Shown piece after piece: positions 10,108 through 12,682 of a DNA stretch of 37,926 nt. This stretch comes from Candidatus Adlerbacteria bacterium (GTDB lineage: Bacteria > Patescibacteriota > Minisyncoccia > Phycocordibacterales > SBAW01): contig CAIJFH010000010.1 in the NCBI GenBank assembly GCA_903819895.1, positions 1-37,926 on the forward strand. Reading direction: 5' to 3'. The first letter of the stretch is position 1. The number at the start of each line of letters is the position of its first letter. Both the position numbers and the translations under genes were made by a program. Under the pieces are notes generated by a model, which worked only from the letters and a program-made list of their open reading frames with translations, did no database searches and was not told the origin of the DNA.

Positions 10108-12096
10108 ATGAAACACCCCCACGTCGAGACACCGATGGAGACCACGTTTGGGAGGTTTATCATGCGCGTCTACGCGGACTCATTTGGCAAAGAGACACTA
10201 GTACTGCGGACAAACGTACTCGACCCATCCAAGCCCGTCCTTGTCCGTATACACAGCGAGTGCCTCACGGGCGACACGTTCGGCAGCTTGTGGTGCGACT
10301 GTGGCGAACAGCTACATCAAGCAATGAAGCTCATTGCAAAGAGCGGCAACGGCGTACTCGTGTACTTGCGACAAGAAGGGCGTGGCATCGGGTTGTTTGA
10401 AAAAACGCGCAGCTATGAACTACAGCGGCAAGGGTTTGATACATTCGAAGCAAATGTCATGTTGGGACATCGCCCCGACGAGCGCACCTACGAGTGGGCA
10501 AAAATAGCACTCGCCGACCTTGGTGTTGATACGATACAGCTCCTCACTAACAACCCATCGAAAGTGTCCGAGGTCGCCAAGCTTGGCATCACGGTCATTG
10601 AGCGTGTCCCAATTATCATCAACAGCAACGAGTACAACAAACCGTATTTCGACGCAAAGCGCGACAAGTTTAAACATTTCTTTAACAACGAAGTCAGCTA
10701 CTACTTCTACCAATTCCATGCCGACACCGTCGAGCAGGTGCAGCACATTGGCGAATACTTACAGAACAAGAAACGTGACCCACTGCTCAAGATTTGTGTT
10801 GGTGTTGCCGCAAACCATGAGACACTCGCCGATGCGGCAGCGATTGAAAAGATACGAGCAATCTTCGAGACCTGCGGATTCTACGAAGGATTTGTGCCAA
10901 TCCTGCATTTCTCTTTTGCTACGTCGCCAAACCCGACAGAGGATGTGCAAACTATCCACAATGTGATGCCATTTGTTACATATCTTCAGACAAACGATGT
11001 CACGCCAAAGGATACCAAGACCATTACCGCTGCCTGTGAGACATTTCTCGCCGACATACCGCTGTGGGATGAAAACTTTTCGCTCGTACACAGCAAAGAG
11101 TTTCGTGACACCATCACCAACAACAAGGCGTTCGTCTTGCTCGACAACAGCAAAGGCACTGGGTTGCGTGAGTCCAAAGAAAGTTTGATGCAAAAGATAG
11201 ATACGTTGCTTGGCTACGGCATGAACGACATTGCCATTTTTGGCGGCTTCGGACCAGACGACCTCGACACCTACTTTGAACTCCGGCGGCACTATCGCAT
11301 CAACTTCTCTATCGACGCAGAGACAAAACTTAAGACCGATGGGACACTCGATATCGAAAAAACCAAAACCTACTTGCAGCAACTGCTACGCTTTGACGAC
11401 CCAAAGGAGGCGGGCGTCGAGCAATCGCGGACATTTCTGCAACAACACAAGGCAGATGACTGGGCGTCAGTAGCTATCGACAGTCGTGAGTTTTTGGTAC
11501 ACCCTGCGGTGTTCAACCCTGGGCACTTCCCGTCGACGCGATGGTTTGCAGAGTTTGTGCGCAAGTATGTAAAAGATCAAAAGGACTTTTGTGAGATTGG
11601 TTGCGGTGCGGGCGTAATTAGTTGCTTGGTCGCGCTCGCCAACCCCGATATACATATCACTGCAACCGACATCAATCCGTTTGCAAGCGAGACAACACGA
11701 CAAAATGCCGAGCGACTCGGACTGAGTGATCGTGTCGACGTATTCAATGGTGATGTACTCGACGCGGTGCCACAAGACAAAAAGTTTGACACTATCTTTT
11801 GGTCGCTGCCGTTTGGATTCCTCGACCCGGGCGCAAAGATCGACCTGCGCGATACGCAGCTGTTTGACCCCGGCTACCGCGCAACACGTAAGTTTCTCGC
11901 CAGTGCAAAAAAGTATCTCCAACCAAATGGGCATATTCTCATCGGCTTCTCTGAAGATCTCGGGCATCCCGACCTGCTCGACGCCATCGCACGAGAGGAA
12001 GGTACCCTGTTTGAGAAAGTTGCCGAGAACGTGATGCAAGAAAAAGATGCGGTGTCGTTTGAGATTCTAAAGGGAACGTACCGCACAGAAGTGTAA
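10108..12096 (+). CDS. GTP cyclohydrolase II - TrpF-like isomerase - SAM methyltransferase fusion
   Basis: A 662-residue protein with three domains. Residues about 10-195 are GTP cyclohydrolase II: zinc ligands Cys52, Cys63 and Cys65 in ECLTGDTFGSLWCDCGEQL, Tyr86 plus RQEGRGIGL at 88-96, Asp124/Arg126 and LTNNPSKV at 146-153. This family opens GTP to a diaminopyrimidinone carrying phosphoribosylamine. Residues about 225-430 resemble TrpF (phosphoribosylanthranilate isomerase): KIC with Cys230, LLD with Asp346 (the two catalytic positions), GGFGPDDL at 379-386 and FSIDAETK at 400-407. Residues about 450-662 are a class I methyltransferase: CEIGCGAG at 495-502, ATDINP, NGDV, and SLPF at 566-569 where planar-nitrogen methyltransferases have NPPY. 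The cyclohydrolase call is firm, the middle one moderate. No other riboflavin or tryptophan gene is nearby, so it probably serves a different pathway. Confidence 0.85.
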   Translation: MKHPHVETPMETTFGRFIMRVYADSFGKETLVLRTNVLDPSKPVLVRIHSECLTGDTFGSLWCDCGEQLHQAMKLIAKSGNGVLVYLRQEGRGIGLFEKTRSYELQRQGFDTFEANVMLGHRPDERTYEWAKIALADLGVDTIQLLTNNPSKVSEVAKLGITVIERVPIIINSNEYNKPYFDAKRDKFKHFFNNEVSYYFYQFHADTVEQVQHIGEYLQNKKRDPLLKICVGVAANHETLADAAAIEKIRAIFETCGFYEGFVPILHFSFATSPNPTEDVQTIHNVMPFVTYLQTNDVTPKDTKTITAACETFLADIPLWDENFSLVHSKEFRDTITNNKAFVLLDNSKGTGLRESKESLMQKIDTLLGYGMNDIAIFGGFGPDDLDTYFELRRHYRINFSIDAETKLKTDGTLDIEKTKTYLQQLLRFDDPKEAGVEQSRTFLQQHKADDWASVAIDSREFLVHPAVFNPGHFPSTRWFAEFVRKYVKDQKDFCEIGCGAGVISCLVALANPDIHITATDINPFASETTRQNAERLGLSDRVDVFNGDVLDAVPQDKKFDTIFWSLPFGFLDPGAKIDLRDTQLFDPGYRATRKFLASAKKYLQPNGHILIGFSEDLGHPDLLDAIAREEGTLFEKVAENVMQEKDAVSFEILKGTYRTEV

Positions 12097-12144: not shown

Positions 12145-12429
12145 TTACTGCAAGCGTCGCTTGAGTTGGCGATACACCACCGAGCGATGGAGAATGGCGA
12201 TTATGAAAATGGTTATGCCACTGATACGAAAGACGGCGCGATAATCACCGACGCGCAACTTGCGATACCCTTTGAGCGAGCGGCGCAGGGGCTTGCCATA
12301 CACATCCGGGTGCGTCATGAGTTTTTCCTCAATCGCGGTGAGTATCGCATCTCGCCACGCTGAAGTAAGCGCGGGAATATCCTCCGCAACGACCAGGTTG
12401 TGATAGACAACGGTAAATGCTAGCGCCAT
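12145..12429 (-). CDS. RelE/ParE family toxin of a type II toxin-antitoxin pair
   Basis: A 94-residue basic protein with the RelE/ParE layout: an N-terminal helical hairpin (AWRDAILTAIEEKLMTHP), then KPLRRSLKGYRKLRVGDYRA, VFRISG and a final strand IFIIAILHRSVVYRQL. The KGYRKLRVGDYRAVFRI block is diagnostic. RelE members cleave mRNA on the ribosome and ParE members poison gyrase; the sequence does not settle which. Its ATG lies inside the antitoxin gene with a 10-nt overlap, so the two are coupled. The pair lies between the palindromic repeat at 12103 and an orphan gene, an accessory-looking place. Confidence 0.85.
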   Translation of the reverse strand: MALAFTVVYHNLVVAEDIPALTSAWRDAILTAIEEKLMTHPDVYGKPLRRSLKGYRKLRVGDYRAVFRISGITIFIIAILHRSVVYRQLKRRLQ

Positions 12430-12644
12430 GCGGATGCGTGTGACACAAACACTGTACTCTTTACACTCTCTCGCTTGCGAGCAATCTCGTTGAGTACTTG
12501 ATCTTCCTCTAACTCCAGAGCAAGGCGCAGCAGATGCTCCGCCTTAGTCGCCTGCGGTACTTGGTCGCGCTTTGCAAGCCGCCCAAGCGCCACGTCGATA
12601 TCCTTCGAGATACTAATATTGATGCGTTTCTTGCTGGTTGCCAT
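12420..12644 (-). CDS. ribbon-helix-helix antitoxin of the RelE/ParE pair
   Basis: A 74-residue protein. Residues 5-15 (KKRINISISKD) form the DNA-binding beta strand of a ribbon-helix-helix fold, followed by two helices (VALGRLAKRDQ and TKAEHLLRLALELEED). The C-terminal tail (NEIARKRESVKS onward) would bind and neutralise the toxin. Antitoxins of this family also repress their own promoter. The ATG at 12644 is chosen because the upstream open frame runs through the terminator hairpin at 12693-12720, and because TGATACACT lies 8 nt upstream with a TTGTAC -35 at 18 bp. Confidence 0.85.
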   Translation of the reverse strand: MATSKKRINISISKDIDVALGRLAKRDQVPQATKAEHLLRLALELEEDQVLNEIARKRESVKSTVFVSHASAWR

Positions 12645-12652
12645 ATATATGT

Positions 12653-12682
12653 AGTGTATCAGAAGTGTGACAGTGTGTACAA
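12653..12682 (-). promoter_or_regulatory. promoter of the toxin-antitoxin operon
   Basis: On the - strand: TTGTAC (12677-12682), an 18-bp spacer and TACACT (12653-12658) preceded by TGA. The ATG follows after 8 nt, so the leader would be only 1-2 nt. The -35 abuts the T-tract of the upstream terminator. Confidence 0.5.

Follow-up and report, generated by a model that had tools for sequence, protein, structure and literature searches.

Vitamin B2 synthesis begins with GTP cyclohydrolase II (RibA), and the original report of a folate bypass in Chlamydia that combines RibA with TrpF is said to be that of Adams et al. in 2014. In Chlamydia, an isomerase annotated as TrpF (and named TrpC in the source cited here) shunts the RibA product toward tetrahydrofolate by way of 2,5-diamino-6-(phosphoribosylamino)pyrimidin-4-one (DARPP) and dihydroneopterin phosphate (PMC9765610). 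GTP cyclohydrolase II also serves specialised metabolism: the toxoflavin and pseudoiodinine pathways start from it and use methyltransferases. Alongside these, their clusters encode proteins of the WD-40 and sulfatase-modifying-factor types and a RibD-type deaminase, and no TrpF-like enzyme is listed for the pseudoiodinine (psd) cluster (PMC9911603).

The stretch of DNA analysed here, which we call the window, comprises 37,926 nucleotides from a Candidatus Adlerbacteria genome and carries at positions 10108-12096 of the plus strand a gene that joins a RibA domain, a PRAI-like barrel, and a SAM methyltransferase. Its product is a real ORF of 662 residues made up of three domains. The Patescibacteria, to which this organism belongs, are believed to synthesise few compounds of their own. 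By analogy with the Chlamydia bypass, the fusion would hand a GTP cyclohydrolase II product to a PRAI/TrpF-type barrel and so give 7,8-dihydroneopterin phosphate. In Chlamydia, however, the enzymes are separate, TrpF is functional, and the folate assembly genes are present, whereas the fusion is one polypeptide with a divergent barrel that lacks the TrpF cysteine, an added methyltransferase, and no folate assembly genes found in its genome. The chemistry that we propose therefore already has a precedent; the architecture is what looks new, and neither it nor the PRAI-like barrel family appears to have been described before in the literature and databases searched.

Three domains of the fusion protein

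The first domain (aa 1-191; 10108-10680, plus strand) is a GTP cyclohydrolase II by every measure applied. Residues 6-168 match PF00925 (6.5e-56; 188.9 bits against a cut-off of 23.3), the protein scores 219.7 bits against TIGR00505, above the curated cut-off of 205.85, and the domain matches the structure of E. coli RibA (2bz0) with a Z of 18.3. The E. coli residues C54, C65, C67, Y105, D126, and R128 are all retained, as C52, C63, C65, Y103, D124, and R126, and RQEGRG and TNNPSK are both present, which bears out the cyclohydrolase II motifs listed in the preliminary description. According to work in Streptomyces, the tyrosine at position 105 of E. coli RibA decides between a deformylated and a formylated product. 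Since this tyrosine (Y103) and the other catalytic residues are retained, the normal RibA product would be expected from domain 1, and a FAPy-type product arising through a change at Tyr105 was ruled out. Phe110 (in GFDT) was also rejected as the Tyr105 site, as it corresponds to E. coli Y112. Conversion of GTP to DARPP, in which the domain would open GTP and remove formate and pyrophosphate, is thus a strongly supported first step as far as sequence can indicate.

The second domain (aa 192-430; 10681-11397, plus strand) matches no Pfam or NCBIfam model significantly; PF00697 (PRAI) did not hit it, nor did that model match anything in the window's own genome or in 20 relatives of one draw. Lack of a (beta/alpha)8 barrel would have told against the preliminary reading of this region, but AlphaFold2 does predict one: the domain alone, modelled from five sequences, folds as a complete (beta/alpha)8 barrel with a pLDDT of 82 and a pTM of 0.82. 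The six best rows of a VIA-align comparison were all PRAI/TrpF structures (Z 15.6-14.7; 1v5x 15.6, 1nsj 15.4, 4wui 15.1, and others), a preference that is consistent with a PRAI assignment for the model but not decisive, because KDO8P synthase (KDO8PS) follows closely at Z 14.5 and other phosphate-binding barrels lie within about 1-1.5 of PRAI. Foldseek placed triosephosphate isomerase and TrpA structures high, with no PRAI among the best 50 matches listed. In profile comparison by hhalign, a family of stand-alone barrels aligned with the fusion barrel at 99.4% probability and with a TrpF alignment at 97.7%; the family and fusion barrels together reached 98.1% against TrpF, and the fusion barrels alone 33.7%. 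On this profile evidence the fusion barrel is related to TrpF through a link that runs via the stand-alone family.

TrpF catalysis depends on a cysteine on strand 1 (KICG) and on an aspartate. The preliminary description took Cys230 (codon 10795-10797, plus strand) for the former, as a TrpF-like KIC, and this assignment is ruled out: by the predicted strands and alignments Cys230 lies on strand 2, the TrpF strand-1 position corresponds to about F203/H204, and Cys230 is missing both from two-domain homologues, which have FLGI or FLGV there, and from the stand-alone family, so that it is unconserved in distant relatives. The barrel therefore cannot use the exact acid-base pair of TrpF. Asp346 (codon 11143-11145, plus strand; LLDN, strand 6) fared better. 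It aligns with the TrpF catalytic aspartate and is invariant in the fusions, the two-domain forms, and the stand-alone family. The segment VLLDNSKGTG (11134-11163, plus strand) holds this aspartate together with a TrpF-like GxG loop, and AIFGGFGPDD (11233-11262, plus strand) holds the strand 7 GG; hhalign sets SKGTG on TrpF GGTG and FGGF on TrpF AGG, so the earlier reading of LLD and of the GG in GGFGPDDL as TrpF-like agrees with the alignment and extends to the GxG loop. The likeness to TrpF (PF00697) thus lies in the predicted fold, the aspartate, the GG and GxG segments, and remote profile homology. The differences are the lack of a PRAI Pfam hit, the replaced cysteine, the SPR segment that follows TrpF strand 2 and is not seen in the fusion barrel, and a genome in which phmmer with E. 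coli queries found no trpC/F gene.

Stand-alone PRAI-like barrels of about 250 aa occur in 13 other genomes in a 238-genome draw of the class and match no Pfam family above cut-off. They (L030-L042, L029) share the motifs YIGVTGF ... LLDxSGGxG ... AGGLGP ... SIDAE and are present in about 5% of sampled class genomes. No GTP cyclohydrolase II was found in genomes with a stand-alone barrel in a same-sized draw of the same group, and a RibA-product substrate is therefore not family-wide; the ancestral substrate need not have been DARPP. With these relatives, the fusion defines a new PRAI-like barrel family. They also bear on a rival account, in which the DARPP supplied by RibA undergoes some other reaction in the barrel, such as an epimerisation, an aldol-type step, or cleavage of the N-glycosidic bond, before the methyltransferase modifies the result. 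Barrels that live without RibA imply that the fold is used for other substrates, the TrpF catalytic cysteine is unconserved, and structural scores separate PRAI weakly from other phosphate-binding barrels. We nonetheless regard this account as somewhat unlikely, given that the TrpF aspartate, GxG loop, and GG segments are retained and that another patescibacterium (G212, see below) has a genuine TrpF in one cluster with a RibA-like gene.

The third domain (aa 445-659; 11440-12084, plus strand) is a class I SAM methyltransferase of the MTS/PrmC-like type. Residues 461-627 match PF05175 (MTS; 1.4e-16, above cut-off), and by VIA-align its nearest structures were MJ0882 (Z 20.3), PrmC, RlmG, RsmC, and a carbamoyl N-methyltransferase, in keeping with a Rossmann fold. 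Motif I is intact as EIGCGAG, with its GxGxG. At motif IV the protein reads SLPF (aa 566-569) in place of NPPY, as had been noticed earlier, and [SA][LM]PF stands at this position in 5/5 fusions. NPPY/F at motif IV is a mark of amide and amino N-methyltransferases; with its Asn missing, a standard amide or exocyclic-amine mechanism becomes less certain.

Distribution of the fusion and of other RibA-barrel loci

The genome that carries the window fusion is assembled in 38 contigs totalling 837 kb at 96% completeness, and the bacterium is tiny and probably host-dependent. A search of other genomes for the same architecture, which the preliminary description had suggested, returned five genomes in all, with fusions 58-92% identical: the window itself, L003/G015 (92% identical to the window fusion), L002/G031 (67%), L004 (66%), and G057 (58%). 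Named relatives are Adlerbacteria, Nomurabacteria, and one unclassified Patescibacteria genome, which marks the organism as a patescibacterium. The distribution is patchy. The fusion was found in 3/60 relatives, the window genome not counted, and a 297-genome draw of the order contained only three full fusions, the window one included. Among the 60 relatives, GTP cyclohydrolase II domains were present only in fusion-carrying genomes and all belonged to the fusion family. Compared with the 92% identical L003 sequence, the RibA domain and the barrel of the window gene have dN/dS values of 0.06 and 0.07, and the methyltransferase has one of 0.14; all three domains are therefore under purifying selection. 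A tree of the RibA domain gave no clear order of fusion events. A viral or plasmid origin was considered and rejected, since collections of phage, viral, and plasmid sequences gave no homologue covering the full length.

Across other ARRANGEMENTS, RibA and the barrel are joined in three arrangements: the fusion, an HTH-RibA-barrel protein, and a divergent two-domain form. The second arrangement is a further copy in G031 (L019 15133-17350), separated by about 5.5 kb from that genome's full fusion, in which an XRE-type HTH precedes RibA and the barrel in a protein of 507 aa. It is followed by a separate, methyltransferase-like protein of 236 aa, whose gene overlaps it by a few codons; this protein has the motif-I-like DVGGGMGD and no family match. 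The HTH of this paralogue would suit a nucleotide sensor or regulator whose domains bind GTP and SAM and make no product, but the HTH occurs in one copy only and the RibA catalytic residues are all retained, and of the readings considered here this is the one to which we give least credence. The two-domain form, in G803 and G784, is about 30% identical to the window protein and has no methyltransferase. In both genomes a divergently oriented TrmB-type regulator adjoins the RibA-barrel gene, the two regulators being 76% identical.

An unfused cluster was found in G212, a patescibacterium of another family in the same class (L156 3465-11253). Its genes lie on the same strand in the order RibA-like, dTMP-kinase-like, TrpF, class III aminotransferase, an unknown protein of 455 aa, an arylformamidase-type cyclase, adenine phosphoribosyltransferase (Apt), and a HAD hydrolase; a divergent TrmB-type regulator accompanies them, as one does the gene in G803 and G784. 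The TrpF is genuine (PF00697, 1.6e-19), with KICG, LLDS, and GGTG all present, and no tryptophan gene was seen in the stretch read. The RibA-like protein matches PF00925 at 3.2e-8 and retains the three cysteines, D126, and R128 (E. coli numbering); its activity is uncertain because R90, E92, R94, and Y105 are lost. To judge from these genes, G212 holds an independent association of RibA-like and TrpF enzyme types, with the TrpF cysteine intact, in what looks like an undescribed biosynthetic cluster.

Two further kinds of RibA locus were read from the sequence. At L150 and L151 (G292 and G061), divergent RibA genes adjoin an M19-dipeptidase-like gene. At L157 5140-6906 (G244), a RibA-like gene that reads as an HTH fusion lies beside a HisG-like ATP phosphoribosyltransferase gene.

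Pathway context and proposed function

Whole-genome searches were made by phmmer with E. coli proteins against the complete assembly; among the controls pyrG and ileS were found, ClpX was weak, and IspA gave nothing, so a gene missed by these searches may still be present. RibA was found only in the fusion, and tgt and DHFR were both found. No match was obtained in the genome for folE, folB, folK, folP, ribB, lumazine synthase (ribE), or ribF, nor for queA, queC, queD, queE, or queF, and E. coli RibD gave one weak match, to a deaminase-like ORF (33 bits). The earlier statement that the fusion has no further riboflavin or pterin gene close by is thus correct and, DHFR apart, extends by phmmer to the whole genome for the genes queried. 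The window protein shares the complete domain (TIGR00505) and the catalytic residues of ordinary RibA, but differs in being joined to a barrel and a methyltransferase and in having no riboflavin genes found with it. A link to queuosine through tgt was ruled out, as tgt occurs in 49/60 relatives and is uncorrelated with the fusion.

These searches weigh on whether the fusion simply supplies DARPP or dihydroneopterin phosphate for the riboflavin or folate of the cell or its host. The presence of DHFR would fit such a supply, as would the synthesis of folate through RibA and TrpF in Chlamydia (PMC9765610). A bypass of the Chlamydia type, however, needs FolB, FolK, and FolP downstream, and E. coli FolB, FolK, and FolP found no match in the fusion genome; HPPK (PF01288) was found in 0/7 carriers tested, while 11/14 control genomes gave a match. 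The riboflavin genes ribB, ribE, and ribF were likewise not found genome-wide, and neither pathway includes a fused methyltransferase. We judge this supply to be very improbable. More generally, a vitamin role appears unlikely because riboflavin, folate-assembly, and queuosine-synthesis genes were not found, DHFR and tgt excepted.

A pathway of the toxoflavin/pseudoiodinine type leading to an azapteridine, with the barrel as an auxiliary, is in our estimate improbable. Those routes begin with GTP cyclohydrolase II and employ methyltransferases (PMC9911603), a combination also present in the fusion, but their RibD-type deaminase, WD-40, and sulfatase-modifying-factor partners are not evident beside the window gene, and the genome-wide match to E. 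coli RibD is the weak one given above.

We propose instead that the fusion is a self-contained three-step enzyme that would convert GTP to DARPP, then to an Amadori-rearranged intermediate, and then to a methylated specialised product, a scheme that we consider quite possible though short of probable. For the second step we infer an Amadori rearrangement of the phosphoribosylamine by the barrel, from its remote homology, one retained catalytic aspartate, the recurrent pairing of RibA with the barrel, and the G212 cluster. Asp346 would act as the acid, with a base other than the cysteine of TrpF, and the resulting 1-deoxyribulose would close on the 5-amino group to give 7,8-dihydroneopterin phosphate, as in the RibA/TrpF bypass of Chlamydia. 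Passage of the RibA product to an Amadori-type barrel had been suggested in the preliminary description. The idea gains from the Chlamydia precedent (PMC9765610), the unfused G212 cluster, and the predicted barrel, and loses from the mistaken TrpF cysteine and from stand-alone barrels in genomes in which no RibA was found. In the third step, the C-terminal domain would use SAM to methylate the small molecule made in the second, the one ground for this being that the methyltransferase is fused.

Since the searches found no gene for riboflavin, for folate assembly, or for queuosine synthesis that could act downstream, these three steps would most likely yield a specialised metabolite or signal, a methylated compound of the pterin or pyrimidine type, and not a vitamin precursor. 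A specialised metabolite is plausible since toxoflavin and pseudoiodinine clusters use GTP cyclohydrolase II with methyltransferases (PMC9911603). A narrower version, which we hold only tentatively, is that one enzyme makes a new methylated pterin, or a related compound, from GTP while avoiding GTP cyclohydrolase I in bacteria without known pterin pathways; G212 would then represent a second such pathway in Patescibacteria. If the proposal is true, the fusion would be a second, fused instance of the RibA and isomerase route to pterins known from Chlamydia. That genomes otherwise without folate assembly or GTP cyclohydrolase II keep a three-enzyme fusion under purifying selection suggests that an ultra-small bacterium makes a specialised small molecule.

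Genes around the fusion

Besides the fusion gene itself, no neighbour gene is common to the five fusion loci. In G057, the fusion is followed on its own strand by an ABC transporter (L020 5221-7799) made up of two ABC-2-type permease-like proteins and a DrrA-like ATPase; it is a possible exporter and is not conserved at the other fusion loci. In the window (658-25411), the fusion lies amid cell-surface polysaccharide genes, which encode GT4 glycosyltransferases, an FkbM methyltransferase, a polysaccharide deacetylase, and a flippase-like protein. Exostosin-like and PMT_2 proteins are encoded in the same region, followed by a lamin-tail/PKD protein and a TraD/TraG-like ATPase. Immediately after the fusion, the sequence of the other strand reads as a RelE/ParE-like toxin ORF (12145-12429, minus strand), preceded by a ribbon-helix-helix-like antitoxin segment (about 12420-12660, minus strand).
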